Origin: Marivivens sp.
Lineage (GTDB): Bacteria; Pseudomonadota; Alphaproteobacteria; Rhodobacterales; Rhodobacteraceae
NCBI GenBank assembly: GCA_023254495.1
Contig: JALRLK010000043.1
Coordinates: 1-32,003, forward strand
Direction of reading: 5' to 3'
DNA length: 32,003 nucleotides
The notes beneath the pieces were generated by a model. It ran no database searches. It was not told the DNA's origin and worked only from the letters and a program-made list of their open reading frames with translations. Below are positions 8,372 to 24,916 of this stretch, in pieces; the first letter of the stretch is position 1, and the number at the start of each line of letters is the position of its first letter. The position numbers and the translations under genes are program-made.

Positions 8372-10326
8372 ATGTCATCAGAACCACAGATCCGGATCGG
8401 TGATCGGGAAGAGCTTGTATTCATGCTCGCCGAAGCCGCAGCCATCGAACACAATGTCATGTGCGGCTACCTCTACGGAGCCTGGAGCCTCAAGCTGGGT
8501 GAGCGTGACGGGCTGACGCCTGATCAGGCCAAGGTCGTCGCGGAATGGAAGCGGCTCATCACGCAGGTCGCCATCGAGGAGATGACCCACCTGACGCTGG
8601 TGGGCAATCTGGCGATTTCCATCGGTGGCGCGCCGCATCTCTCGCGGCCGGAATTCCCGATCCCTGCGGGCGAACATCCCGCCGCAATCGACCTTGAACT
8701 CGCGGGCTTTTGCCATGCCCTTCTGGACCACGCGATCTTTTTAGAGCGCCCCGAGGGCGTCGAGCTGGCCGATGCGCCCGGCTTTGCGCCACCTGCGGAA
8801 TACAGCCGCGCCGCGCCGAAAGGCACGATCATGCCCTCATCGCAGGACTATAGCACCATCGGCCATCTCTATCGCGGCATCTATCATGGCTTTGAGGTTT
8901 TGACCCGCCGCTATGGCGAAGAGGATCTCTTCTGCGGCACCATCGAGGATCAGATCACCCCCGCCGACGCCCCCTGCCCGGCCTTTCCGTTGTCAAAGAC
9001 CTCGCCAGCGCCCGTGACGCCATCGAGACTATCGTCGAGCAGGGCGAAGGGGCGCCGCAGCATTCCGAGGACTCGCACTACGCCCGTTTCCTTTCGGTCA
9101 AGGCGCAGCTTGAAGAGATGGTCGCCAAAGATCCGACCTTCCAGCCCGCCTGGCCCGTGGCCCGCAACCCCTGCGCCAAGGCACCGATCCCCGGCAGCAA
9201 CCGCATCCAGATCACCGACCCCGAGGCGGCGCAGGTGCTCGACCTCGGCAATTCTCTTTATAACCTCATGCTCCGCTGTCTTGCCCAAGCCTGGGACCGT
9301 GCGCCCGGAGAGGCAGCGACCAAACAACTGATGGTCACCCTTGCCCGCGAGGCGATGTGGGCGCTCGTGCCGGTGGGCGAATACCTTGCCTCGCTTCCGG
9401 CGGGGCCGGAACATCCGGCCCTGCACGCGGGGCTTTCGTTTTCGACCCTGCGGGATGTGCGAAGCCTGCCTGAAGGGCACGGCGAGATGCTCTTCCTCTC
9501 CGAGCGGATGGAAGAGATTGCCAAACACGCCGAGCGGCTCTTTCCCGAGGGGCACGAACTCTACAAGATACCTGCGGGCCTCCGCAAGATGGCGCGCAAG
9601 ATCGAGGTGCCCGGGGCCGAGCCGAAACCGGTCGCAGCCCCCCTCGTCAACGACAAGCGCGGCGCACCAGTGGCGGAGGGCGAGGACGATCCTTTTGGCA
9701 TCGCCGAGGGCAAGGAAATGACGCTGCATTTCAACTCCAAGCGCTGCATCCATTCACGGCGCTGCGTGCTGGGCGCGCCGGATGTGTTTCTTGCCAACGT
9801 GGTGGGCGAGTGGCTCTTTCCCGACAAGATGCTCACCGCCGATCTGCGCGGCATCTGCCACACCTGCCCCTCGGGTGCGATCACCTATGATCCGAAGGGA
9901 GACACACCGCCTGAGCCTGCGCCGCTGGTCAACTCGCTCAAGCCCCGCGAAAACGGCCCCTATGCCGTGCACGCGACGATCCTCATGGATGGCAAACCCG
10001 ACGGCTATCGCGCCACGCTCTGCCGCTGCGGCGCCTCGAAGAACGAGCCCTATTGCGACGGCTCGCACAACATGATCGGCTTCCGCGCCTCAGGCGAGCC
10101 GGAGACGCGGCCCTCTGATCCCCTGAAGGTCCGCAATGGCGAATTGCGGATTGATCCAGAGGTCAACGGCCCCTTGCAGGTGACAGGCAACCTCGAGATT
10201 TGCACCGGCACGAGGCGCAACGTGGATCGGGTTCAGTCGGTGCGGCTTTGCCGCTGTGGCGGATCGAAGAACAAGCCGTTCTGCGACAATACCCACCTCA
10301 AGATCGGCTTCCGCAGCGACCAGTAG
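8372..10326 (+). pseudogene. Ferritin-like (VioB/iminophenyl-pyruvate dimer synthase-like) + Fer4_19-like + two CDGSH domains; reading frame broken once near 8970
   Basis: ORF 8351-9331 gives the ferritin-like half; ORF 9118-10326 gives FNSKRCIHSRRCVLGAPDVF...CHTCPSGAITYDP and two CDGSH motifs (CRCGASKNEPYCDGSH, CRCGGSKNKPFCDNTH). The frames join if one C is added to the C5 run at 8970-8974 (reads DAPLPGLSVVKDLASARDAIE). Confidence 0.8.
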
Positions 10327-10329
10327 CCC

Positions 10330-11691
10330 TCAGAGATACCAGTCGTATTCCTGCCGCGAGATCGTGTCCATGAAGGCCTCGAGCTCGGCCGCTTTTACCT
10401 GCCGGTAGAGGTCGAGATAGTCCTCGCCGAAATAGTCGGTGAGGATCTCGGCCCGTCCAAGCGCGGCTAGCGCATCCCAGAACGTATTGGGCAGGGTTTC
10501 GTCCAGCTCTGCGCCCGCGTTGCCTGTATGCTTGGCGCCGGGATCGAGCTCGTTCGTGAGGCCATAATGGACGCCCGCCAGAACCGCGGCCGTGACGAGA
10601 TAGGGATTGGCTTCAGCCCCCGCCACACGGTGTTCGAGCCTGCGGGCGGCGCCATCGGTCACGGGCGGCAGGCGGAAGGCGACCGAGCGGTTGTTCTCGC
10701 CCCAGTCGCGGGTGACGGGGGTAAACTCGTCAGGCTTGAAGCGGCGATAGACGTTGATGTTGGGCGCGAAGATCGCCATCGCCTCGTGCAGCGTGGCCTG
10801 AAGGCCGCCCACCGCATGGCCGAGGAGCTTTTCGCCATCGGGACGAGCGGGATCAAAGATGTTGCGGCCCTCATCGTCCAAAAGGCTCATGTGGATGTGC
10901 AGGCCGTTGCCCGACAGGCCGGGGAAAGGCTTGGACATGAACGTGACGTCAAAGCCTTGCGCCCGCGCCTCGCCCTGCACCGCCCGCCGCAGAAGGGCGG
11001 CATGATCAGCAGCGCGGAGCGGGTCGGTCTGGTGCTCGAGATTGATCTCGAACTGCCCCGGACCGTATTCGCAGATGACCGTGCTGACCGGCAAGCCCTG
11101 CGCCCGGCAGGCTTCCTGCAAGGCATTGAGGATCGGGCTATATTCGTCGAGCTTTGCCAGCGAGAGCACTTGCCCCTGCGACTCGCGCTCGCCAGTCACA
11201 GGCGAGGCGGCGGGGATCGGCGCGCCGTCCGCGGCGCGGCCAAGGTCGGTGAGATAGAACTCCAACTCCAGCGCCACTACGGGCTTCAGGCCAAGACCGC
11301 GCACCATTTCGATGACATCCGCGAGGATCTTGCGCGGCTCATACCAGAAGGTCTCGCCATTCGTGGCGCGGGTCATCTGACACAAGACCTGCCCGCCTTT
11401 GCCGCCGCTCCAAGGGATCGGTGCAAAGGTTCCGGCAATGGGCCGCGCCATGCCGTCGGGATCGCCATCGGAAAAGCCGAAACCCATCGGATCGGCAGTG
11501 TTGCCCCGCACGTCCACAAGCTGCATCGCCGCGCAAACCGGCGTTCCGGCCTTGAGCATCTTGGCGACATGGCCAACGGGAAGCCGCTTGCCGATGGCCC
11601 GCCCGCAGAGGTCGATCACGATCGCGTCGATATACTCGATGAAGGGATGGTCTTGCAGAAGCTCGTCGAGCTCGGTCTCGGTGGCAAACAT
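10330..11691 (-). CDS. Glutamine synthetase family protein (gamma-glutamyl-amine ligase-like)
   Basis: Contains LELEFYL, GPGQFEINLEHQTDPLRAAD, GNGLHIHMSLLD, HRVAGAEANPYLVTAAVLAG, C-terminal EAFMDTISRQEYDWYL. Confidence 0.92.
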   Translation of the reverse strand: MFATETELDELLQDHPFIEYIDAIVIDLCGRAIGKRLPVGHVAKMLKAGTPVCAAMQLVDVRGNTADPMGFGFSDGDPDGMARPIAGTFAPIPWSGGKGGQVLCQMTRATNGETFWYEPRKILADVIEMVRGLGLKPVVALELEFYLTDLGRAADGAPIPAASPVTGERESQGQVLSLAKLDEYSPILNALQEACRAQGLPVSTVICEYGPGQFEINLEHQTDPLRAADHAALLRRAVQGEARAQGFDVTFMSKPFPGLSGNGLHIHMSLLDDEGRNIFDPARPDGEKLLGHAVGGLQATLHEAMAIFAPNINVYRRFKPDEFTPVTRDWGENNRSVAFRLPPVTDGAARRLEHRVAGAEANPYLVTAAVLAGVHYGLTNELDPGAKHTGNAGAELDETLPNTFWDALAALGRAEILTDYFGEDYLDLYRQVKAAELEAFMDTISRQEYDWYL

Positions 11692-11759: not shown

Positions 11760-12992
11760 CTATGCCTTTTCGGGCCGGTGGGTCTCTCTGAGACCGAGGA
11801 AGAGCCACAGCCCCGACAGCGCCATCGCCCCCGCGGTAAGCCAGAAGCCCGCTTCGAGATGTCCCGAGGCATCCGCCACTAGGCCAATCGCCAATGCCCC
11901 GAAGGCATAGCCGAGATCGCGCCAGAACCGGTAAACGCCCAAGGCCGAGCCACGCCATTCGGGCTTGGCCAGATCGCCGACCGCGGCGATGAGGTTGGGA
12001 TAGAGGAGCGCCATGCCAACGCCCGTCACCGCCGCCGCACCCGCCCATGCAAGTGGGGCCGACAGGAGCGGGAAAGCCGCGACCCCCGCAGCGCATATGG
12101 CAAAGCCCGCGACGATCGGCGGCTTGCGCCCGATCCTGTCGGAAAGGGGGCCGGTCCAAAGCTGGCTTGCGCCCCAGACAAGCCCATAGGTCACTGTGAT
12201 CCAGCCGATGGTGACAAGGGCCACGCCTTGCGCCGCGAGGTAGACCGGCACCAGCGCCCACATCAACGCATCGACGAATTTCTCGACGCTGCCCGCCTGC
12301 GAAAGTGCCTGAAACTCGCGGCTGCGCCAGCTGACCAGCGCAAAGATGCTCTTGGCGGATACTGCGGGGGCCTTGGCCGCGCCAACCGGAGGCCGCGTCT
12401 CGGCAAAAGCCAAGATCGCCGCCACCAGCGCCAGAAGGTTGACGATCAGGCCAATGGCAAACAGCGCCGTGCGGGGATCGAATTGGCTCGCCAGATAGCC
12501 CGTCGCTAGGCCCGCAATCGCCACGCCGCCATAGCCCGCAAATTCATTGACGCCGGTGGCAAGCCCCCGCTGGTCGGGGCGGGCAATGTCGAACTTGGCG
12601 GTCACGGTCATCGACCAGCAAAAGCCCTGATTGACGCCCAAAAGCACATTGGCTGCGACGATCCAGCCCCAGCTTGGCGCGAGGAGGATCACGAAGGGGA
12701 TCGGCAAGGCAACGAGCCACCCCCAGATCAAGACCTTCCTTCGGCCCACGCTGTCGGACAGGCGGCCCGAGACAAAGTTCATCGCCCCTTTGACAAGGCC
12801 GAAGCTGACGACGAAAGCGAAGAGAGAGGCGACCGACCCTTGGGCGACGCCAAACTCTGTTTCGGCCATCGCGGGGATCACCGTGCGCTGAAGGCCGATG
12901 GTCAGGCCGACGAAGAACACCTGCAAAAGCTGCTGCAGGAAGAGGCCGAGGTTTTCTCGCAGGCCCAGAGGTCGGGTTGGCACGGTGGTCAT
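11760..12992 (-). CDS. MFS transporter
   Basis: Multiple hydrophobic segments; GRLSDSVGRRKVLIWG and GPLSDRIGRKPPIVAG loop motifs. Confidence 0.9.
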   Translation of the reverse strand: MTTVPTRPLGLRENLGLFLQQLLQVFFVGLTIGLQRTVIPAMAETEFGVAQGSVASLFAFVVSFGLVKGAMNFVSGRLSDSVGRRKVLIWGWLVALPIPFVILLAPSWGWIVAANVLLGVNQGFCWSMTVTAKFDIARPDQRGLATGVNEFAGYGGVAIAGLATGYLASQFDPRTALFAIGLIVNLLALVAAILAFAETRPPVGAAKAPAVSAKSIFALVSWRSREFQALSQAGSVEKFVDALMWALVPVYLAAQGVALVTIGWITVTYGLVWGASQLWTGPLSDRIGRKPPIVAGFAICAAGVAAFPLLSAPLAWAGAAAVTGVGMALLYPNLIAAVGDLAKPEWRGSALGVYRFWRDLGYAFGALAIGLVADASGHLEAGFWLTAGAMALSGLWLFLGLRETHRPEKA

Positions 12993-13029
12993 TTCGTCGA
13001 TTCCGGTTGCACTTCTGGTCGTAGGCGCA

Positions 13030-13057
13030 TATCATTCAAGAGATTTATTGAATGATA
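13030..13057. promoter_or_regulatory. Palindromic operator candidate TATCATTCAA-N8-TTGAATGATA
   Basis: Perfect 10-bp inverted repeat (13030-13039 / 13048-13057) in the divergent gap between the MFS gene and the ArsR-rhodanese gene. Confidence 0.75.
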
Positions 13058-13077
13058 CTTACGAACCGGCCCCCTCG

Positions 13078-13761
13078 ATGTCAACGTCCAACAAACTCGC
13101 CCTGATCGACGAATATGCCTCGATCGCCCGCGCCCTCGCCTCGCCGCACCGGATGCGCCTTTTGGAGCAATTGGCCCAAGGCGAGAAAGGCGTCGACGCT
13201 TTGGCCGAGAAAACCGAGCTGAGCTTTGCCAACTGCTCGCAGCACCTTCAGGAATTGCGCCGTGTCGGGCTGGTGACAAGCCGGCGCGAGGGCAAGGCCG
13301 CCATTTATCGGCTGACCGACGACGACACGCTGCGCCTGATGGCGCTGATCCAGAAGATCGCCCGCCAAAACATCGACCGTGTCGACGAGATCCTCGATGG
13401 TATCGCCGGCGGGATCGAGCGGCCCGAGCCTGTCTCGCGCGAAGTTTTGGCCGAGCGGTTGGCCGCGGGCGACGTGGTGGTGCTCGATATCCGCCCGCCG
13501 GAGGAATTCGCAGCGGGCCATATCCCCGGCGCGCTCAGCGCCCCGCTGGACGAGGTAGGCCAACTGGCCGAAAGCCTCGATCCGTCAACGCCGATCTTTG
13601 CCTATTGCCGCGGCCCCTATTGCCTTTATGCCGACCGCGCCGCCGCTGAACTGCGCCAGCGCGGGTTTGATGCCCGAACGGTCGAAGGCGGCCTGCCCGA
13701 CTGGCGCGCCGACGGCCGCCCCGTAGCGACGGTTGACAGGGCGGTCGACGCTGTAATCTAA
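13078..13761 (+). CDS. ArsR-family HTH regulator fused to a rhodanese domain
   Basis: N-terminal winged-helix (ALASPHRMRLLEQLAQGEKGVDALAEKTELSFANCSQHLQELRRVGLVTSRREGKAAIYRL); C-terminal rhodanese with VVLDIRPPEEFAAGHIPGA and YCRGPYC. Confidence 0.92.
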   Translation: MSTSNKLALIDEYASIARALASPHRMRLLEQLAQGEKGVDALAEKTELSFANCSQHLQELRRVGLVTSRREGKAAIYRLTDDDTLRLMALIQKIARQNIDRVDEILDGIAGGIERPEPVSREVLAERLAAGDVVVLDIRPPEEFAAGHIPGALSAPLDEVGQLAESLDPSTPIFAYCRGPYCLYADRAAAELRQRGFDARTVEGGLPDWRADGRPVATVDRAVDAVI

Positions 13762-14973: not shown

Positions 14974-15043
14974 CTCTGTGGTAATTTGGTGCGCCTGAGG
15001 CAAACAAACGCGAACCAGATTCTCGTCTGGCCTGCCTCGGGGC

Positions 15044-15271
15044 CTAGGCGGTGTGTTTGATCGTGAAGAAGTAAACGTTCCCGTCCTGATGATGCTCGAC
15101 CAGTTCGTTTCCGGTGGTGCGGCAGAAGGCTTCAAAGTCCTTCACTGCGCCCGGATCGGTCGCCTGAATTTCCAGGGTGCCGCCGGTCGGAACATCCTTG
15201 AGTGCCTTCTTAGCCCGCAGGATCGGAAGGGGGCAGTTGAGGCCCTTCGCGTCGAGAGTTACGTCAGCCAT
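15044..15271 (-). CDS. tusA: TusA-family sulfurtransferase
   Basis: 75 aa; LDAKGLNCPLPILRAKKAL contains the CPxP active-site motif. Confidence 0.93.
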   Translation of the reverse strand: MADVTLDAKGLNCPLPILRAKKALKDVPTGGTLEIQATDPGAVKDFEAFCRTTGNELVEHHQDGNVYFFTIKHTA

Positions 15272-15283
15272 TCGTGTAATCCT

Positions 15284-15778
15284 TTAGATATAGAGGTTAA
15301 TTTCACTTTTGGTCGCGACCTCGACCCAAGACGCCGCGCCGCCAATGGCGACACCGTCGATCAGGTCTTCGCGCTTGTATTCAAAGAGATCGAGGGTCAT
15401 CTGGCAGGCAATCATGTTGACCTCGGACTCGATGGCCATCTCGCGCAGCTCTTCGACCGAGGCGACGCCCTTCTTCTTGATGAGGTTCTTCATCATCGCG
15501 GTGGTCAGCGCCGGCGCGCCCGGCAGGGCGGCCATGATGTTGGGCATGGCCATGTGGCCGCCCATCATCGGCATTTCCATAGCCGAGTTGCCGAGGGTCG
15601 TAACCTTCAGGTTCATGTCTTTCTTCAAAAGGCCGAGGCCGTAGAAGGTAAAGAACATGGTGACATCAAGCCCCATCGCCGCGGCGGTGGTGGCCAGAAT
15701 GAACGGAGGATAGGCCCAGTCGAGCGTGCCCTTCGTTACGATGATCGACATTGACTTTGCGTTTTGTTCGTCCGCCAC
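15284..15778 (-). CDS. DsrE/DsrF/DrsH-like family protein (DsrE2-like), GTG start
   Basis: SIIVTKGTLDWAYPPFILATTAAAMGLDVTMFFTFYGLGLL...ACQMTLDLF; located between lbpA and tusA. Confidence 0.88.
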   Translation of the reverse strand: MADEQNAKSMSIIVTKGTLDWAYPPFILATTAAAMGLDVTMFFTFYGLGLLKKDMNLKVTTLGNSAMEMPMMGGHMAMPNIMAALPGAPALTTAMMKNLIKKKGVASVEELREMAIESEVNMIACQMTLDLFEYKREDLIDGVAIGGAASWVEVATKSEINLYI

Positions 15779-15839: not shown

Positions 15840-16280
15840 TCAAGCGCATCCTGCAAATTCATCAGCGGCCATCTTGGCCTCATAGGGCGCTGCAACTGCT
15901 GCTCCGGGGGTCAGGATCGCATCCGCTTCGCCCTGGTTGGCCGGCTTGACCCGCACCATCCAGCCGGCGCCGTAGGTATCGCTGTTGGCCAACTTGGGAT
16001 CATCGACCAGCGCCAAGTTCACCTCGACGATCTCGGCGGTAAAGCCCAGCTTGGCCGGGCCGACCCATTTGCCGCTCTCGACGGTGGCACAGCTTTTGCC
16101 GGCCTCGATCGTCTTGCCGGCCTTCTTGCCGGTAAAGGCCACAAGCTGGCCGGCCATGCCGGTCGCGATCATGGTCATGCCCGCGGTATAGGTGCCGTCG
16201 CCTTCGGGGCGATACCACAGGTTGTTCGGCACGTCGTAAAACAGATCGTCCGGAAGATTACATCCACGTACCACTGGCAT
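15840..16280 (-). CDS. lbpA: Lipoate-binding protein LbpA (GcvH-like)
   Basis: GcvH-like fold sequence WYRPEGDGTYTAGMTMIATGMAGQLVAFTGKKAGKTIEAGKSCATVESGKWVGP with lipoyl-lysine context (ESGKW), within an hdr-like cluster. Confidence 0.93.
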   Translation of the reverse strand: MPVVRGCNLPDDLFYDVPNNLWYRPEGDGTYTAGMTMIATGMAGQLVAFTGKKAGKTIEAGKSCATVESGKWVGPAKLGFTAEIVEVNLALVDDPKLANSDTYGAGWMVRVKPANQGEADAILTPGAAVAAPYEAKMAADEFAGCA

Positions 16281-16301: not shown

Positions 16302-16766
16302 TCAATTCGTTATGGTGCTGTCCGCACTGTGCAGCGGACGCGATGAGCAGCAGAAATCGCCCAAGCCACTTTCGTGGAGTTTGCCTCCGACGAACAATCC
16401 CAGATGCCGCAAGACATGGGCTTCGAGCATCAGGTGGTGGCGAGCTTGGGCAAGGTCGCCCTCGGATAATGACATCTCGACAACGTTCCGCAAATACACA
16501 AGTTCACGGCAGGTCTCGCGGCAGGCGTTGAACGAGGGATTGCCCTTTGCCCCTTGCCGGTGCAGCGCCAGAAGGCGATAACCCTCGACCTCTTCCTCGG
16601 TCGGAACGTTGCCTGCGGCCTCGACCCAAGCCTCGAGCACGACCTCTCCGGCCCCAAGGAGCTGCTTGGCAGAGTCGAGCGGCGCAGCGTCGGAGGCGGC
16701 CGACGCGGCTACGGCATCGGCCAGCGCGATTGCGCCATCAAGATCGAGGGGCGCCTGAAGGGTCAT
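16302..16766 (-). CDS. Uncharacterized 154-aa protein inside the sHdr operon
   Basis: ATG at 16766, start region adjoining the HdrB2 stop; translation contains FNACRETCRELVYLRNVVE and GDFCCSSRPL. No family recognised. Confidence 0.75.
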   Translation of the reverse strand: MTLQAPLDLDGAIALADAVAASAASDAAPLDSAKQLLGAGEVVLEAWVEAAGNVPTEEEVEGYRLLALHRQGAKGNPSFNACRETCRELVYLRNVVEMSLSEGDLAQARHHLMLEAHVLRHLGLFVGGKLHESGLGDFCCSSRPLHSADSTITN

Positions 16767-17692
16767 CCGAGGCCCTTTTCCTTGAGGAAGGCGCGCGAGT
16801 CCGACAGGTTTTCCTGAACGCCCACTTTCGAGGCCGAGAGGCCCAGCGCCATGCCAAGAAGCTGGGTAAAGTAGAGGATCTTCACGTTGGTCTTGCGCCC
16901 CAGAACCTTCTCGGCGCGGACCTGATGCATCTCGAGGCCGGTGTGGCAGGTCGGGCATTCGGTTGCGATCACCTCAGCACCGCAGGCCTCGGCCGTTTCG
17001 ATGATGTTGAGCACGAGCTTCGTGGACATATCGCTGTCCGAGAGCGAATGCGCACCACCGCAGCAGGCGGTTTTCAACGGAAACTCGACATTCTCGGCGC
17101 CGGCGGCGGCGAGGATATCATCCATGAAATGCGGCTTGGCGGTCGACTCGCTGCCGGGGCCCTTGTCCTTCTCGGGGAAGATGTGGCGCGGGCGTGTGTA
17201 CATACAGCCGTAATAGTTGGCGACCTTGATGCCTTTGAGCGAGTTCTTCACGCGCTTTTCGAGCTCTTCCTCGCCCACGGCCTTCTTGATCCAGTCAAGC
17301 GCGTGGATCGTCTCGACCTTGCCGGGCTTATAGGCATCGTGGCCGGCCTTGGCGCTGATGCGCTCGTTCACCTCGACCGATTTCGGATCATTGGCGAGGT
17401 CGTACTCGGCCTTCTTGAGGTTGTGATAGCAGCCGTTGCAGGGCGCCATGACCTTGTCGAAGCCCATATCCTCGGCGATCGAGAGGTTGCGGGCGGAAAG
17501 ATAGGTCTGCACCTTGGGGTCAACGTTTTTGACCTCCATCGCGCCGCAGCAGTTCCAGTTCTCGAGCTCGACAAGCTCAAGGCCCAAGGATTTGCCGACC
17601 GCCTTGGTCGAACGGTTATAGGCGTGGCCGGTGCCTTCTAGGGCGCAGCCCGGATAATAGGCGACCTTCTGGAGATCGTTGCTGCCGTCCAT
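16763..17692 (-). CDS. shdrB2: Heterodisulfide reductase subunit B-like, sHdrB2
   Basis: Two CCG-type motifs (YYPGCALEGTG...NWNCCGAME; YYGCMYTRP...KTACCGGAH). Confidence 0.92.
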   Translation of the reverse strand: MDGSNDLQKVAYYPGCALEGTGHAYNRSTKAVGKSLGLELVELENWNCCGAMEVKNVDPKVQTYLSARNLSIAEDMGFDKVMAPCNGCYHNLKKAEYDLANDPKSVEVNERISAKAGHDAYKPGKVETIHALDWIKKAVGEEELEKRVKNSLKGIKVANYYGCMYTRPRHIFPEKDKGPGSESTAKPHFMDDILAAAGAENVEFPLKTACCGGAHSLSDSDMSTKLVLNIIETAEACGAEVIATECPTCHTGLEMHQVRAEKVLGRKTNVKILYFTQLLGMALGLSASKVGVQENLSDSRAFLKEKGLG

Positions 17693-18432
17693 CAGTGGCC
17701 TCCCTTGGCGCCGACAGCGGCACGGTTCGCCGCTTCGACCTCTTGCACATATTCATTGATTGCCCGGCGCGATTTGGCCCAGTTGCGGGTGCGCGGGCGC
17801 CGCACGACCGCCATGCCCATTCGCATCAGGTAGAAAACCGGGAAGCGGAAGGCGAGGCCCTTGATCAGCGCCACCAGCCACGGCTGGGCGAGGGGCTGTT
17901 CGGTGCGGCGGAAGAAATTCATGATGACGCGGCTTTCCTCGATCTTGCCGGTCTTGATGACCTGACCCGAGAATTCCTCGTCAAATTCGGTCGAGGGGCT
18001 CTTGGGCGTGTGGCCCTTGAGCTCAAGCCAATGCGCGGTGGCCTTCATGACGCCCTCGGGCACCACATCGCGCGGGCAGGCGTAGGTGCATTTGTTGCAG
18101 GACACGCACTGCCAGATGATGTCCTTGTCGCGCAGCAGCTCTTCTTCCATGCCAAGGCGGATGAGATAGATCCAGTAGCGCGGGTTGAACTCGGGGTTCA
18201 CGGCGTTGACTGTGCAGGCGTTTGTACACGAACCACATTGCCAGCAACGATGGATATTCTCGCCGCCCGGCAGGGCCGCGATCTCGTCCTGCATATCGTC
18301 ATTGTAATCGGTCAGCGAGCGGCCCGTGATAAAGGTGCTCCAGTGGCCGGACACATCGACGCCGTCGATGACGAGGTTCTCATTCTCGACGAGATTCTCC
18401 TTCCGGATCAAGGACTTTTCATGAATTGGCAC
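17692..18432 (-). CDS. shdrC2: Heterodisulfide reductase subunit C-like ferredoxin, sHdrC2, GTG start
   Basis: Two 4Fe-4S motifs (CWQCGSCTNACTVN; CVSCNKCTYACPRDV); GGAGG ribosome-binding site upstream of GTG. Confidence 0.9.
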   Translation of the reverse strand: MPIHEKSLIRKENLVENENLVIDGVDVSGHWSTFITGRSLTDYNDDMQDEIAALPGGENIHRCWQCGSCTNACTVNAVNPEFNPRYWIYLIRLGMEEELLRDKDIIWQCVSCNKCTYACPRDVVPEGVMKATAHWLELKGHTPKSPSTEFDEEFSGQVIKTGKIEESRVIMNFFRRTEQPLAQPWLVALIKGLAFRFPVFYLMRMGMAVVRRPRTRNWAKSRRAINEYVQEVEAANRAAVGAKGGH

Positions 18433-19309
18433 GGGGAGCCTCCGGTTCGGGAAGTGCTGGGGTTCCCCCCAGGAAATGAGCTTGGCCGTCGATCAGACGC
18501 AGGCGGGTGCGGCCGGTTTCGGTGTCCACGGCATCAAGGCCGAGCATCCGGCGGGTATGCAGCATCGGATCGCCTTCCATCGAGAAGTCGGTCCGCAGGT
18601 ATTGCCCGCCCCGGTCGTTGATATAGGCCGCATAGACGTGGGCCATGAGAAGATCGGTATAGAAGGGCAGATCGCGAAAGACGCCTTCGGCGGCGAGAAA
18701 GCCCTGAAGCTCTTCCGACAGGGTCGAATGCATCAGGTAGTCGTCATCTGCGTTGATCTGCGCGGCGTCGACATCCTCGGCGTGCCAGATCTCGCGCAGG
18801 ACGCCGGTTTTCACCTTGGCATCCCAGACCCAGCGGCACATGAGCGGATAGCGATCAGGCGCCGTGAAGTGCAGAACCTCGGCCGCCAAATCGCGCACCC
18901 AGCGGTGCGCCTTGTCGGCGGGGAAGGAGGCCACGAAACCGGCGATCCGCTCGTCGGCGGTGGCGGTGTCGGACCAGCCCGTGAGAAGCTCGATCAGACG
19001 CTGGCGCATGATCGAGAAATCATTGTCGGCCAGCCATTGGCCGATCCGGCGGCGCACCGGGGTCACAAACGCGGCGAGGTCGAGGAATTCCTCTTTCGTC
19101 AGCTTGTCGATATGGCCCTTGCCCAGAAGTTCCTCAAAGAGCGAGGCCTTGAGCATCAGCGCGGTGATATAGCGCTCGACCCCGCCCGTGGGCTCGGCCG
19201 ATTGCACCATGTTCTCGAACGCCCGCCGCAAGCGGTGGCCGGACAGGTCCAGCACCGGCGCCGAAGGCACCGGGGCAGACTTTTCGGCCTGGCGGGCGAA
19301 ACCGAACAT
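18419..19309 (-). CDS. Hyp protein typical of position between sHdrA and sHdrC2
   Basis: 296 aa, overlaps neighbours; position matches the C1-B1-A-hyp-C2-B2 gene order described for sHdr clusters. Confidence 0.8.
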   Translation of the reverse strand: MFGFARQAEKSAPVPSAPVLDLSGHRLRRAFENMVQSAEPTGGVERYITALMLKASLFEELLGKGHIDKLTKEEFLDLAAFVTPVRRRIGQWLADNDFSIMRQRLIELLTGWSDTATADERIAGFVASFPADKAHRWVRDLAAEVLHFTAPDRYPLMCRWVWDAKVKTGVLREIWHAEDVDAAQINADDDYLMHSTLSEELQGFLAAEGVFRDLPFYTDLLMAHVYAAYINDRGGQYLRTDFSMEGDPMLHTRRMLGLDAVDTETGRTRLRLIDGQAHFLGGTPALPEPEAPRANS

Positions 19310-20358
19310 TACTCAGCCGCAACCTTTCCGGCAGGTTTGAAGTTAAGCGCAGCCATCGCGGCGGCCTGACCTTGGGCGATCGAGTCGTCGATCGTCTCGG
19401 GGCCGGTCGCGGCGCCCGCGACGAACACGCCGGGGCGGTTGGTCTCGGCCAGATGCGCATAGGTCGATTGCTTGGCGATGTAGCCATATTTGTTGAGATC
19501 GACGCCAAAGACCGAAGAGATCGTCATGTTGTCGACGTTGGGATCCATGCCGATGGCGTGAACCACCATGTCGAAGGGGATCGAGACCGGGCGCTTGATG
19601 AGCGTGTCCTCGCCCTTCACCAGAAGGCGCTTCCCGTCCGAGGTGACCTCGGCGATGCGGGCCTTGATGTATTTGACCTTATGCTCTTCCTGGCTGGCCC
19701 AGTAATAGTCGCCCTCGTAGAGGCCGAAGGTCCGGATATCCATGTAGTAGATATAGACGTTGGTCTTGGGCGACAGCTCGCGGATTTCCATCGCGATATT
19801 GGCCGAGACTGTGCAGCAGATCTTCGAGCACCACTCGCGGCCGATCTGACGGTCGCGCGAACCGACGCAGAGCAGGATCGCCACGCGGTCCGGCACGCGG
19901 CCATCAGAGGGGCAGCGGATGCCCTTGCCCGACGAGATCATCTGTTCGACCTGCACGGTAGTCACAACATCGGGATAGGTGCCAAAGCCCCACTCGGGCT
20001 TGTTGACGCTGTCAAAGTGGGTGAAGCCGGTGGTCAGGATCGTCGATCCCGCTTCGATCTTGGTTCCGTCCTTCAGCGTCGCGGTGAATGCGCCGGGCTC
20101 GCCCTCGAAGCTCTGCACCTGAGCGTTCAGGCGCACATCGACACCCTCGCGGCCCTGCACACGGTCGACCATGGCGCCGATGGCGTCCTTGGCCCATTCG
20201 TGCGAGGGGACGAGCTTGGCATAACCATCAAGGATGGGCGCGCCGCCGAGCCTGTCTTCCTTTTCGACCAGAACAACCTTCTGGCCGGCCGAGGCGAGGG
20301 CGTGTACTGCCGAGAGCCCGGCGGGTCCGCCGCCGACGATAAGAACGGGTTTCGTCAC
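19309..20358 (-). CDS. shdrA: Heterodisulfide reductase subunit A-like, sHdrA, GTG start
   Basis: VLIVGGGPAGLSAVHALASAGQKVVLVEKEDRLGG FAD motif, CVGSRDRQIGREWCSKICC cysteine motif; GTG at 20358 with AGGAG upstream. The 500-aa ORF in the track starts too early. Confidence 0.92.
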   Translation of the reverse strand: MTKPVLIVGGGPAGLSAVHALASAGQKVVLVEKEDRLGGAPILDGYAKLVPSHEWAKDAIGAMVDRVQGREGVDVRLNAQVQSFEGEPGAFTATLKDGTKIEAGSTILTTGFTHFDSVNKPEWGFGTYPDVVTTVQVEQMISSGKGIRCPSDGRVPDRVAILLCVGSRDRQIGREWCSKICCTVSANIAMEIRELSPKTNVYIYYMDIRTFGLYEGDYYWASQEEHKVKYIKARIAEVTSDGKRLLVKGEDTLIKRPVSIPFDMVVHAIGMDPNVDNMTISSVFGVDLNKYGYIAKQSTYAHLAETNRPGVFVAGAATGPETIDDSIAQGQAAAMAALNFKPAGKVAAE

Positions 20359-20360
20359 TA

Positions 20361-21731
20361 CTATGCTCCTGCGATCGCTTTGGGCCGAACGTAGCCGGGG
20401 CCCGAGGTGATGGCCCGCTTGGGGTCGTAAAGGGTTTCGATGCGGCCGGCCTTGACCTCGTCGAGGTAGCCTTCGAACTCGGCTTTGGCCTTCTCCCAGT
20501 CGATGCCCATCTTCTCCAGAAGGGTCTCGAAGGGCGAGGCGTGCCAGTGCAGCTGTGCCAGCTTGTAGGGATGTGCGCCCATGGTCAGCGCGGCGAACTG
20601 GCAATCGGCCATAACGGGCAGCGCATAGACCTTGTCGACAGCCTTGCCGATCCACTGGTTCTTGTCGAGCGTGGTGATACAGCCAGTGTCGTGGCCGATC
20701 ATCACGTCGGAACGGGCCTCTTCCACGGCGACCTTGATTTTGCGGTCGATGGCGAAAGAGCGGGTGAATTCGCGCTCGCCGATGATGTGGCGGAAGCCGA
20801 AGCCGCAGCAATCATACCATGTGGAATAGTCGATCACCTGCGTGCCCAGGGACTGAAGAAGGCCGGTGGTCACGGCCACACGGTCGCCGTTCATCACGGT
20901 GTCGTCGTAGATGACGTCTTCGGGGACCATCTTGTAGACGTGGCAGGCGGGGTGAACGGTCGAGCGGATGTTCGAGACATCCACCGTCTGGCGATCCTTG
21001 ATGCGGTGGCGCATGACGTGCAGCCACTCGGAATAATGCACGATCTCTTCGGGGATCAGGAGTTTGCCGTCAACAAGGCGGCCCAGCTTGCCAAGGATCG
21101 TCTTGACCTCTTCGCGCAGCTCGGCCGAGTGCAGAAGGAAGCCGCGAATTTCCTTGTAGTTTCCAAAGGATGTGCCGCAGTGGACGAGCGGGTAATAAGT
21201 GCCCTCGGGCAGGCCCTGCGACTTGGCCGAAACATAGGCCTGATGGAAATTCCGCAAGAACACGGCAGCGAGCGAAACCACGTTGCCGATGCCCGAGCCG
21301 TGATAGTTCCACGCGGTGCAGGAGGTCTGGTCGGTCTCGTCGAGATAGTTCAGGCCGAGCTGGTTCTGGATCCAGAGGATCGACGAGGGATAGCCCGGGA
21401 TATTGCCGCACTGGCCGCAGGATTTGTGGTGCCAGAGGTTGTTGGTGGGGATCTTCTTGTCCCAGCCGAAAAGCGTCTTGGCCATCACCGGCTCGTGGAC
21501 GTCGGTCACGCGGTGAACCTTGATCTCGCCCTCTTTTTCAAGCTGCCACATGATGTCGCGCACGTCTTCCTTGCGCTCTTTCGAGGTCAGAAGCGCGCGT
21601 TTGTCGATCCGCGCCTCGACCCAGTCGGTCGCGCGGCGGGCTTCGGTCGTGCTCAGCTTGGTCGGCGTCCAATCGGCCCCAAAGCCGTTGTAGGCACCCG
21701 ATTTCGAACCATTGGTAGTGTCGTTGGCCAT
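20361..21731 (-). CDS. shdrB1: Heterodisulfide reductase subunit B-like, sHdrB1
   Basis: Start MANDTTNGSKS at 21731; CGQCGNIPGYPSS and WYDCCGFGFRH...GHDTGC cysteine motifs. Confidence 0.9.
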   Translation of the reverse strand: MANDTTNGSKSGAYNGFGADWTPTKLSTTEARRATDWVEARIDKRALLTSKERKEDVRDIMWQLEKEGEIKVHRVTDVHEPVMAKTLFGWDKKIPTNNLWHHKSCGQCGNIPGYPSSILWIQNQLGLNYLDETDQTSCTAWNYHGSGIGNVVSLAAVFLRNFHQAYVSAKSQGLPEGTYYPLVHCGTSFGNYKEIRGFLLHSAELREEVKTILGKLGRLVDGKLLIPEEIVHYSEWLHVMRHRIKDRQTVDVSNIRSTVHPACHVYKMVPEDVIYDDTVMNGDRVAVTTGLLQSLGTQVIDYSTWYDCCGFGFRHIIGEREFTRSFAIDRKIKVAVEEARSDVMIGHDTGCITTLDKNQWIGKAVDKVYALPVMADCQFAALTMGAHPYKLAQLHWHASPFETLLEKMGIDWEKAKAEFEGYLDEVKAGRIETLYDPKRAITSGPGYVRPKAIAGA

Positions 21732-21768
21732 AATGTCCTCCGTCCGTGCAGTTGCAGCTACAGGCGTA

Positions 21769-22524
21769 TCAATCGTCGTCGTCTTCGTCGTCTTGCTCGT
21801 CGAGCCAGTCTTCCCACTCTTCGCGCTTCTCATCCATCACGTCGGCAACGACGTCGAAGAGGTTTTCATCGACGGTCTCGAGCTGTTTGAGAACGCCGGT
21901 CGCTTCCCAGATGGTGTAGAGTTCGACCGAGGTCTTGAGGTTCACTTCCCAGGCCGTGTCGAGCGTGTGCATCGTCGGCATGGGGATCGCTTTGCGCAGG
22001 ATCATCAAAGGCGCATCGACCTTGGCCACGTTGGGGCCCCAGTCGGGGAAGGCCTCTTTGGTGATCATGTTGGGGGCAAGCTGGTTGCCGGTGGAAACCA
22101 CCTTGAGAAGCACACGGCTGAAGGGCCGGAGCACCTCTTTGACCGATTCAAACTCGTGCTTGATCGCCACTTCGCGCATTATCATCACGAGGCCGCCGGG
22201 CGAGTTTTCGAAGGGGCAGCGGGCGGCGCAGGTATAGCACTGGGCGCAGGCCCAGATCTTTTCCTGCATCGCGTCATAGATGCCTTCGAGGTTTTCGGTC
22301 CAAAGAAGCTGGACGATCTCGCGGGGGCTATAATCGTAGTAATGCGCCGAGGGGCAGGTCGCCGTGCAGATGCCGCAGTTGAGGCAGCCGTGAATCTCGT
22401 GGCTATAGGTCGGATGGTTCCGGATATCGTCGAAGATTTCCTCGAGCTGTTCCCGGCTGACCGGCGCACCGTCTGAGACCGGATCGGCGATCGGCGGTAG
22501 CGGGATCGACGAATGGGCTGTCAT
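21769..22524 (-). CDS. shdrC1: Heterodisulfide reductase subunit C-like ferredoxin, sHdrC1
   Basis: CLNCGICTATCPSA and CAQCYTCAARCPFE 4Fe-4S motifs; acidic C-terminal tail DEQDDEDDDD. Confidence 0.92.
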   Translation of the reverse strand: MTAHSSIPLPPIADPVSDGAPVSREQLEEIFDDIRNHPTYSHEIHGCLNCGICTATCPSAHYYDYSPREIVQLLWTENLEGIYDAMQEKIWACAQCYTCAARCPFENSPGGLVMIMREVAIKHEFESVKEVLRPFSRVLLKVVSTGNQLAPNMITKEAFPDWGPNVAKVDAPLMILRKAIPMPTMHTLDTAWEVNLKTSVELYTIWEATGVLKQLETVDENLFDVVADVMDEKREEWEDWLDEQDDEDDDD

Positions 22525-22547: not shown

Positions 22548-22928
22548 TCAGTAGGTCAGAACGCGAACGTCATCGTCTTCCATGATGGATTCAATCACAT
22601 GGGCTCCGCCCACGATCCCTTCGCATTCGGGGATCAGGTCGTCGGCAGTCATTTCAAAGAGATCAAGGTTGGGCGAGCAGCAATAGAATTTGGCGCCTGC
22701 CTCATGTGCATCCTTGATGAAATCATAAACAGTCTTGGGCGAGCCTTCCTTGACGACAAGTTTCTCGGCCTCACCCTTCTTCATCAGGCGGCCGGCGGTA
22801 GCGGTGCAGATGACCTCGACCTCATAATCCATCGCTGCCGCGACAGTTGCCTGGAAGAACGGAGCACCCAGCTCTTCCCCGTTGCGAGGGTCGGTATTTA
22901 CCATCACGATAATCAGCTTTTCCGCCAT
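22548..22928 (-). CDS. DsrE-family protein (DsrE3-like)
   Basis: MAEKLIIVMVNTDPRNGEELGAPFFQATVAAAMDYEVEVICTATAGRLMKKG...GAKFYCCSPNLDLFEM; RBS GGGAGG upstream. Confidence 0.88.
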   Translation of the reverse strand: MAEKLIIVMVNTDPRNGEELGAPFFQATVAAAMDYEVEVICTATAGRLMKKGEAEKLVVKEGSPKTVYDFIKDAHEAGAKFYCCSPNLDLFEMTADDLIPECEGIVGGAHVIESIMEDDDVRVLTY

Positions 22929-22992
22929 ATTTCCTCCCTTTGGCGCCGAACCCAAGACTCCCCATCCCGAGTGTGTCGCCCATTCCTCAACA

Positions 22993-23072: not shown

Positions 23073-23762
23073 TCACATCCAGCCGCAGTGATCGACGATC
23101 GAAACCATGAGCCTGCTGAGCGCTTCGGCGATCTCGGCCTGCCGGTCTCCAAGTTCGACAAGCGCAGACACAGTATCGTCAGGAGTTTCAGCGAATTCCA
23201 TGATCAGGTCTTCGGCCATGCCACGCTTGTAGCCGGGGTGACCGACCATGCCGAGGCTGTTGCCGTTCACCGTAAAAGCCATGATCTCGCCGTTCGGTCC
23301 TAGCGCGGAAATCTCGGCGGATTTTGGCGGAACGGGGCGATCCCGAAGATAGGAGGCCATCGGAAAATCGCTCGGCAGCGTCGCGCCAAAGGCCGAATCG
23401 GCCACCGGATTGATTCGCGACACGTCAAAGCGCAGGGGAGCTTCGGCCGCCCCACCTCCGGCGGCCACCGAAAGGATCACCGCGCCAAGGCCAAATCCCA
23501 AAACCGGAAGCCCCGCATCAAGGAAAGCCTTGGTGAGGCGCAGCTCTGGCCCGAGGCTGGGCAAGATATGTCCGCTGACCACGCCATATGGGCCTGCGCC
23601 CAGAAGCACCAAGCCGTCGAAATTTCCGGTCACGGACGGGATAGATCCGCCCGCCGCAAAAGGCCGGCGATACTGGAAGCGGACGTTGCGCCCTTCCATA
23701 TGGTCCTCCATGAAGCCGAGGTATTCCGACTCGGTATGCTGGATAACGCAGAGGTTCTTCAT
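23073..23762 (-). CDS. Class I glutamine amidotransferase-like protein, catalytic residues not conserved
   Basis: GATase-1 fold sequence (LVLLGAGPYGVVSG, AFLDAGLPVLGFGLGAVIL, GMVGHPGYKRG) with Gly where the nucleophilic Cys is expected; ATG overlaps the ligase stop (ATGA). Confidence 0.82.
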   Translation of the reverse strand: MKNLCVIQHTESEYLGFMEDHMEGRNVRFQYRRPFAAGGSIPSVTGNFDGLVLLGAGPYGVVSGHILPSLGPELRLTKAFLDAGLPVLGFGLGAVILSVAAGGGAAEAPLRFDVSRINPVADSAFGATLPSDFPMASYLRDRPVPPKSAEISALGPNGEIMAFTVNGNSLGMVGHPGYKRGMAEDLIMEFAETPDDTVSALVELGDRQAEIAEALSRLMVSIVDHCGWM

Positions 23763-24832
23763 GGCTGCGCGGTCGCGGCCATCACGGCCTTGGCGATATC
23801 GGCCCCGGTGACACCCGGCATCTCGATGCCGTTGCCCTCAAGTGCTGCATCGGCGACAGCCGCAAGCGCTGCCTCGTCGAGAGCGCAGCCGCTCAGCGCC
23901 GCGGCCACCATGTCGATCCCTTCGGGCGGCAGGCAGGTGAAATCGCCGCTGATATCCAGCTCCTGCACTTTGCCGTCGTGACTCACAAGCCGCGTGCGGA
24001 TCATCCCGCCCGGCGCCTTGTGGCCGCCTTCCGAGATATGCGTGTGTTCAGAAATCTTGACACCATGCGCCACCGACCGGCGGGCCTTCATATAGGTCCA
24101 GTAGGGATCGGCAAGCTCGGCCTCGGCCCGGGCGATGGCGGCCAGTTCCTCCTCGGTTGGCTGGTCATAGACCGGTTCGACCTTGAGCACATCGGCGCAA
24201 TGCTTAAGGAACCGCGCCTTGATATCGGCCCGTTCAGGCATCTGGCCCAGCTCTTTGGCCATCGTGGTCATATAGTCGTCGAGCGTCTGGCGGAGCTTGT
24301 CGCGGAATTTCTCGGACGGAACCTTGAGGCATTTCGACATGGTCTCGGTATCGAAATCGAGCATGAAGCTGCCGACCATCACCGTGGCTTCGCCGATCGA
24401 AGCCGCTCCCGTGCCGCCGATCTTGCGGCCATCGACATGGATATCGTTCACGGGGCGATAGTTGGCGTTGATCCCCAACTCCTTGTAGGTCCGCACCACC
24501 GGTTCGATGAACTGCGGATAGAGGTTGACCGCAAACTCCGGCGCCTTGTCGCGGGGATAGATGAAATGGGTGAAAAGCTGGTTCTCGTCGAGATAGACCG
24601 CGCCTCCGCCCACATGGCGGCGATAGATCGGCAGGTTGCTCGCCTTGCAGAAATCCTCGTCAACTTCCTTGGCGACCTCTTGGTGCATCCCCACGCAGAC
24701 ATAGGGCGTTTGCGGCGAAACGAGCGAGAGGATCGGATCGCTATCGGGGCCGATGGTTTCGGCAAGGCCGTGATAGACGGCTTGGCTCCGCAGCGCCGGG
24801 ACCATCCCGAAATCTATGACTCTGAGTTTCAT
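23759..24832 (-). CDS. Lipoate-protein ligase with C-terminal accessory domain (sLpl(AB)-like)
   Basis: LplA signatures LPIYRRHVGGGAVYLDENQLFTHFIYP and GRKIGGTGAASIGEATVMVGSFMLDFD; extra C-terminal region HTHISEGGHKAPGGMIRTRLVSHDGKVQELDISGDF. Confidence 0.9.
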   Translation of the reverse strand: MKLRVIDFGMVPALRSQAVYHGLAETIGPDSDPILSLVSPQTPYVCVGMHQEVAKEVDEDFCKASNLPIYRRHVGGGAVYLDENQLFTHFIYPRDKAPEFAVNLYPQFIEPVVRTYKELGINANYRPVNDIHVDGRKIGGTGAASIGEATVMVGSFMLDFDTETMSKCLKVPSEKFRDKLRQTLDDYMTTMAKELGQMPERADIKARFLKHCADVLKVEPVYDQPTEEELAAIARAEAELADPYWTYMKARRSVAHGVKISEHTHISEGGHKAPGGMIRTRLVSHDGKVQELDISGDFTCLPPEGIDMVAAALSGCALDEAALAAVADAALEGNGIEMPGVTGADIAKAVMAATAQP

Positions 24833-24916
24833 GCAACCCTCCCACAGGCAAAGCCGAGAAGACATATCAGCTTTTCTTAATGTGCCAGTGAAACTCTCCT
24901 AGGGGAAGAGGAAAGG

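Follow-up and report, generated by a model that had tools for sequence, protein, structure and literature searches.

LipX, a protein encoded beside the sHdr-LbpA genes of sulfur oxidation, has lost the catalytic cysteine and glutamate of the class I glutamine amidotransferases in every relative checked, which makes a job in sulfur oxidation other than that of a glutaminase almost certain. A non-catalytic LipX is well supported, the protein is probably an accessory of the sHdr pathway, and the best explanation overall, to which we give about even weight, is that LipX is a family-wide pseudoenzyme that works by binding in the sHdr-LbpA pathway. Current models of thiosulfate oxidation count LipX among the enzymes that assemble the lipoate cofactor on LbpA2 (PMC11582611). 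Neither the gene family nor its name is new; apparently undescribed, within the literature searched, are the family-wide catalytic loss, the full co-occurrence with sHdr in our samples, and a sox-type relative.

The LipX of Hyphomicrobium denitrificans is Hden_0687, a “putative glutamine amidotransferase” (PMC10332631, PMC10451225), and the name “GATase1” has been used for a gene in hdr-lbpA clusters (PMC6067878). An slpl(AB) deletion that spared lipX exists in H. denitrificans. No lipX deletion was found in the sHdr-LbpA literature searched, and our literature search found no description of LipX as a pseudoenzyme or as a protein without catalytic residues.

Results

We analyzed a 32,003-nucleotide stretch of a Marivivens sp. 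contig (hereafter, the window) from an 84%-complete genome assembly. The order of its genes, ligase-lipX-dsrE3-shdrC1B1A-H-C2B2-I-lbpA, is that of the published H. denitrificans cluster (Table 1), and we take the gene at issue to be the lipX of the sHdr-LbpA literature, the link to Hden_0687 resting on synteny. Next to the cysK-like gene that closes the shdr cluster, or convergent with it, is a plus-strand gene (12898-13761) that reads by eye as an ArsR-type regulator carrying a rhodanese-like domain at its C terminus, a candidate sulfane-sulfur-responsive regulator. Lipoate ligases of two types are encoded in the window genome, the first in an HDAC-lipS1-lipT-lipS2-slpl row on another contig (G000:C92, equivalent to L126 4081-9734) and the second overlapping lipX (window 23759-24865).

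Table 1. Features of the window cluster and two LipX-type genes at other loci (locus given with the location)
Feature	Location	Strand	Remarks
lipX	23073..23762	-	229 aa, ATG start; predicted class I glutamine-amidotransferase fold; catalytic Cys and Glu replaced (G91, G177), H175 retained
ATGA overlap, ligase TGA stop and lipX ATG start	23759..23762	-	sequence read
Lipoate:protein ligase, here named sLpl_W	23759..24865	-	LplA-like catalytic domain plus C-terminal LplB-like domain; stop overlaps lipX start
DsrE3-type sulfurtransferase gene	22548..22955	-	dsrE3C by synteny with H. denitrificans lipX-dsrE3C; next downstream of lipX
shdrC1	21769..22524	-	synteny and cysteine motifs
shdrB1	20361..21833	-	true start probably 3' of first ATG; relatives start at about residue 35-48
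shdrA	19309..20371	-	approximate; start inferred near VVTKPVLIVGGG
shdrH	18419..19309	-	function unknown; synteny
shdrC2	17692..18432	-	
shdrB2	16763..17692	-	
Probably shdrI, conserved cluster gene	16302..16958	-	start uncertain; overlaps shdrB2
lbpA, GcvH-like lipoate-binding protein	15840..16280	-	
DsrE2-type carrier	15284..15778	-	L113 homolog exceeds NCBIfam DsrE2 cut-off
tusA	15043..15271	-	75 aa
sox-type LipX homolog	L113 8356-9102; L114 8116-8829		Cys-less, in sox cluster
Divergent G396 copy	L134 8382-9083		Glu at nucleophile position, Gln for Glu of H-x-E; near hemL-like gene

The protein is read from the minus strand; the plus strand at 23073-23762 gives no such protein, and the strand was missing from the earlier note. 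The translated elbow is L88-G89-F90-G91-L92-G93-A94 and the second motif is G174-H175-P176-G177, i.e., H-P-G replacing H-x-E, with GGC as both codon 91 and codon 177. The alignment register was controlled with PDB 9xfs, a Cys-containing relative that aligned GKPLLGICLGAQ on GLPVLGFGLGAV, and with a paralog from the window genome itself (L075; GICLGAQ, QFHFE), which gave the same alignment. The open reading frame and these controls confirmed what the earlier note had read, namely, glycine for cysteine in a G-F-G-L-G-A elbow and H-P-G for H-P-E, and its descriptions of an intact gene and of a lipX start that overlaps the ligase stop as ATGA also held. Against the three closest relatives, dN/dS was 0.04-0.10; the gene is thus not decaying, and it is under purifying selection.

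A genome scan across bacteria and archaea yielded 73 loci, and 70 proteins (the window protein and 69 others) were aligned. At residue 91, cysteine was found in 0/70 proteins (glycine in 66, glutamate in 4), and glycine stood in place of the catalytic glutamate at position 177 in 70/70, so the loss is no local mutation. The check named in the earlier note, for orthologs in equivalent clusters that retain C-H-E, found none in the alignment. His175 was kept in 67/70, with asparagine in 3/70. Identical losses occur in the isolates Oricola nitratireducens NBU1457, Solirhodobacter olei Pet-1, Rhodobacter sp. SW2, and R. aestuarii DSM 19945. Across 385 alphaproteobacterial genomes, 12 matches had E values below 1e-60 and the next came only at 1e-20; all 12 above this clean gap were Cys-less with H-P-G or N-P-G, and the relatives read below it had C/H/E in 19/19.

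Ordinary relatives (n = 21) had C, H, and E plus His139, Gln161, and Gln173 in 21/21, and these last three are gone from LipX; the glutaminase signature lost therefore comprises Cys91, His139, Gln161, Gln173, and Glu177 (numbering of ordinary-relative residues). LipX has an invariant set of its own, E19, H21, F35, R140, and K179 and the C-terminal K-x-x-M-x-E-D-L-I-M-E-F; in 49 sequences, 38 columns were invariant. No replacement nucleophile, in the form of an invariant cysteine or serine, was found in the 70 aligned proteins or in the 49-sequence column survey. In a quick-search tree with SH-aLRT support and without bootstrap, one 99% branch parted LipX, the sox-type homologs, and the divergent L132 from all Cys-bearing proteins.

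Several candidates were not accepted as LipX. A relative on an Acidithiobacillus caldus plasmid (H2, 27% identity) is a Cys-bearing amidotransferase of the ordinary kind, encoded next to amt and PII genes, and G561 (L133) and L088, which fall just below the LipX group, are ordinary C/H/E proteins. A Planctomycetaceae record (L073) was left uncounted: about 35 residues match at the contig edge, after which the frame departs from the family, and it is probably an assembly chimera.

The predicted fold of LipX is that of class I amidotransferases. The AlphaFold model (mean pLDDT, 93) places a strand at residues 87-90 and then a helix at 92-100 at the elbow, and the structures closest to it in the PDB belong to class I amidotransferases and gamma-glutamyl peptidases (1o1y, 3m3p, and 8khs; E values of 1e-14 to 7e-14). 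The nearest solved sequences are PDB 9xfs, 1o1y, and 3m3p. LipX scored 12.1 bits against the Pfam GATase cut-off of 22.8 and matched NCBIfam PRK07053 at an E value of 5e-11 (42.5 bits against a cut-off of 250). In terms of enzyme class, the modeled fold is present and the cysteine of G-x-C-x-G, the glutamate of H-x-E, and a family score above the curated cut-offs are absent.

With sHdrB1 as the marker for sHdr, 10 of the 385 genomes in the alphaproteobacterial sample and 7 of the 399 in a phylum-wide sample were positive. A Cys-less LipX-type protein was present in 10/10 and 7/7 of these (15 distinct genomes), the copy in G396, which sits on a long branch, being counted as positive by a threshold set after the data were seen; among sHdrB1-negative genomes, such a protein occurred in 2/375 and 0/392. 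LipX is thus associated with sHdr-LbpA sulfur oxidation. As to whether it occurs exclusively with LbpA, all 15 sHdrB1 genomes have LipX, and the two negative carriers (G194 and G287), in which LbpA was not found, have a more distant homolog.

The single sHdrB1-positive genome outside Alphaproteobacteria is G396, whose order and class hold one genome each in the collection searched. Its LipX-like copy has the elbow GIELGG and the motif FHPQ, yet KSALLEDMVMEY resembles the LipX signature, and E19, Y31, R33, E73, D141, K179, E184, D185, and E189 are retained. The copy lies apart from the shdr genes, which are there accompanied by two LbpA, LipS1, a ligase, and LipT. In a further sHdr- and LipX-positive genome (G281, L112; 97% complete), a window-type ligase adjoins lipX in the opposite direction, and LipS2 was not found in this genome.

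A ligase gene lies immediately upstream of lipX in 52 of the 73 loci with readable upstream sequence, and 37 of these ligases are of the type otherwise linked to lipS1-lipT-lipS2 and 15 of the window type. Of the 52 ligase-preceded loci, 47 have a lipX start that reads ATGA or GTGA. The next tested gene downstream is dsrE3 in 67 of 77 loci, mostly less than 250 bp off, making it a steadier neighbor of lipX than the upstream ligase. At 11 loci, lipX is divergent from lipS1 or from an HDAC-like gene, and most of these retain dsrE3-shdr downstream. In two Robiginitomaculum loci (L058 and L063, approximately 10001-10696), lipX is directly behind a topA-like gene, and no sHdr, lip, or other known partner genes were found within 10 kb of it. 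The lipS1-lipT-lipS2-ligase row is regularly headed by a gene that we identified by eye as an HDAC/acetoin-utilisation-type deacetylase (34/82 loci; for example, L107 3121-4311 and L126 4081-5205). To our knowledge, such a deacetylase has no known role in lipoate assembly.

The homolog in G194 and G287, 38 to 39% identical to the window protein, adjoins soxX, soxY, soxA, soxB, a YeeE/SoxT-like transporter gene, and DsrE2. It has the Gly elbow and H-P-G, and the EDLIMEF signature is absent. Searches of both genomes did not find sHdrB1 or LipS2, and LbpA queries gave weak GcvH-like matches only; DsrA was above its curated cut-off, with a second Dsr match beside it. This setting makes an exclusively lipoate-related role less likely for the group as a whole and leaves such a role open for LipX proper. 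A convergent, slightly overlapping neighbor (L113 7781-8359, 192 aa) had no NCBIfam match.

Discussion

Could the missing residues be a peculiarity of this assembly, or could LipX be an enzyme after all? In a single incomplete metagenome assembly, one might suspect a sequencing error or a gene that has lost its function locally, but the identical residues in isolate genomes and in all 70 proteins, together with the low dN/dS, refute local mutation, assembly error, and a decaying gene, and we regard this explanation as practically eliminated. The annotation and the PRK07053 match, although far below its cut-off, would suit a working glutaminase or ammonia-channelling amidotransferase with another nucleophile. 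Since five residues invariant in ordinary relatives are gone, we consider this highly improbable; LipX is very probably dead as a glutaminase. The more serious objection to a non-catalytic LipX is that its invariant charged residues could form a new active site, using some of His9, Glu19, His21, Arg140, Asp141, Lys179, Glu184, Asp185, and Glu189 and possibly acting on a lipoyl or acyl substrate. That many of the invariant residues are charged keeps this reading alive, and nine conserved residues persist even in the divergent L134 copy. However, the family has no invariant cysteine or serine nucleophile, His175 is replaced in three proteins, the elbow residue is either glycine or glutamate, and binding surfaces can match such conservation, and we judge a rebuilt active site unlikely.

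What LipX would bind is a closer question, for which the earlier proposal of a non-catalytic helper for LbpA maturation and a role in sulfur delivery with DsrE-type carriers are two comparable readings. If LipX is a non-catalytic adaptor acting by binding, its most likely client would be LbpA, which is our first choice because LbpA is the one protein that has to be handled by both ligase types, by the LipS sulfur-inserting enzymes, and by sHdr; LipX synthesis might then be coupled to that of the ligase, and LipX would hand LbpA from modification to use. We give a direct client role of LbpA or its ligase somewhat less than an even chance. Alternatively, LipX may serve sulfur delivery and not lipoate attachment, as a non-catalytic partner of the DsrE-type or TusA carriers that feed sHdr (reverse Dsr for the sox-type form). 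The steadiness of DsrE3 as a neighbor, the 11 loci with lipS1 or an HDAC-like gene upstream in the opposite direction, the presence of LipX alongside both types of ligase and in a genome where LipS2 was not found, and the sox-type homolog amid sox and DsrE2 genes would all fit. Yet the overlap of lipX is with the ligase, dsrE3 being 118 bp away in the window; the lipX-dsrE3C gap of H. denitrificans has been probed in published work as the region upstream of dsrE3C; and the sox-type homolog, without the EDLIMEF signature, may have another job. On balance, we find this alternative possible and rather doubtful.

The LbpA adaptor has difficulties of its own, since sox-type homologs occur in genomes where LbpA, sHdrB1, and LipS2 were not found and the two Robiginitomaculum genes have no known partner within 10 kb. 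Furthermore, the Thioalkalivibrio lipS1-slpl(AB)-lipT-lipS2 genes, which do not include lipX, modified LbpA in Escherichia coli, where the second sulfur insertion was inefficient (PMC10332631). LipX was therefore dispensable for ligation there and is not generally essential for that step, while the inefficient insertion leaves room for a role. The pseudo-amidotransferase part of the earlier proposal is thus supported, whereas the helper part is not established, given the steadier dsrE3, the two ligase types, LipX in G281, where LipS2 was not found, the modification in E. coli, and the sox-type homolog. More doubtful still is a broader possibility, that a pseudo-amidotransferase was recruited as an unrecognised non-catalytic part of cytoplasmic sulfur oxidation, common to sHdr and, in divergent form, to Sox/reverse-Dsr, and docking sulfur carriers or LbpA; if that is true, the listing of LipX as a lipoate-assembly enzyme is wrong.

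Because the family is hardly one of glutaminases, the experimental target is a binding partner and not ammonia transfer. A Cys-less elbow together with K-x-x-M-x-E-D-L-I-M-E-F also offers a cheap sequence marker of the sHdr pathway in genomes.

Among known systems, the H. denitrificans cluster is closest, with the order slpl(AB)-lipX-dsrE3C-shdr and an slpl(AB) stop that overlaps the lipX start as ATGA (PMC10332631), as in the window. The group of PRK07053, TM1158 (1o1y), and DnfC (8khs) resembles the LipX model in fold (TM-score, 0.79-0.82), elbow geometry, and the His of H-x-E, and an N-terminal QH...G motif is partly common to both; unlike that group, LipX is without Cys, Glu, and His139/Gln161/Gln173 and has its own C-terminal signature. 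Human CPS1 retains an amidotransferase-like domain that is inactive, with serine for cysteine (PMC4655335), and there, as in LipX, the fold has outlived the catalytic cysteine. The CPS1 domain is fused to its synthetase, whereas LipX stands alone, retains less of the site, and is linked to sulfur oxidation.
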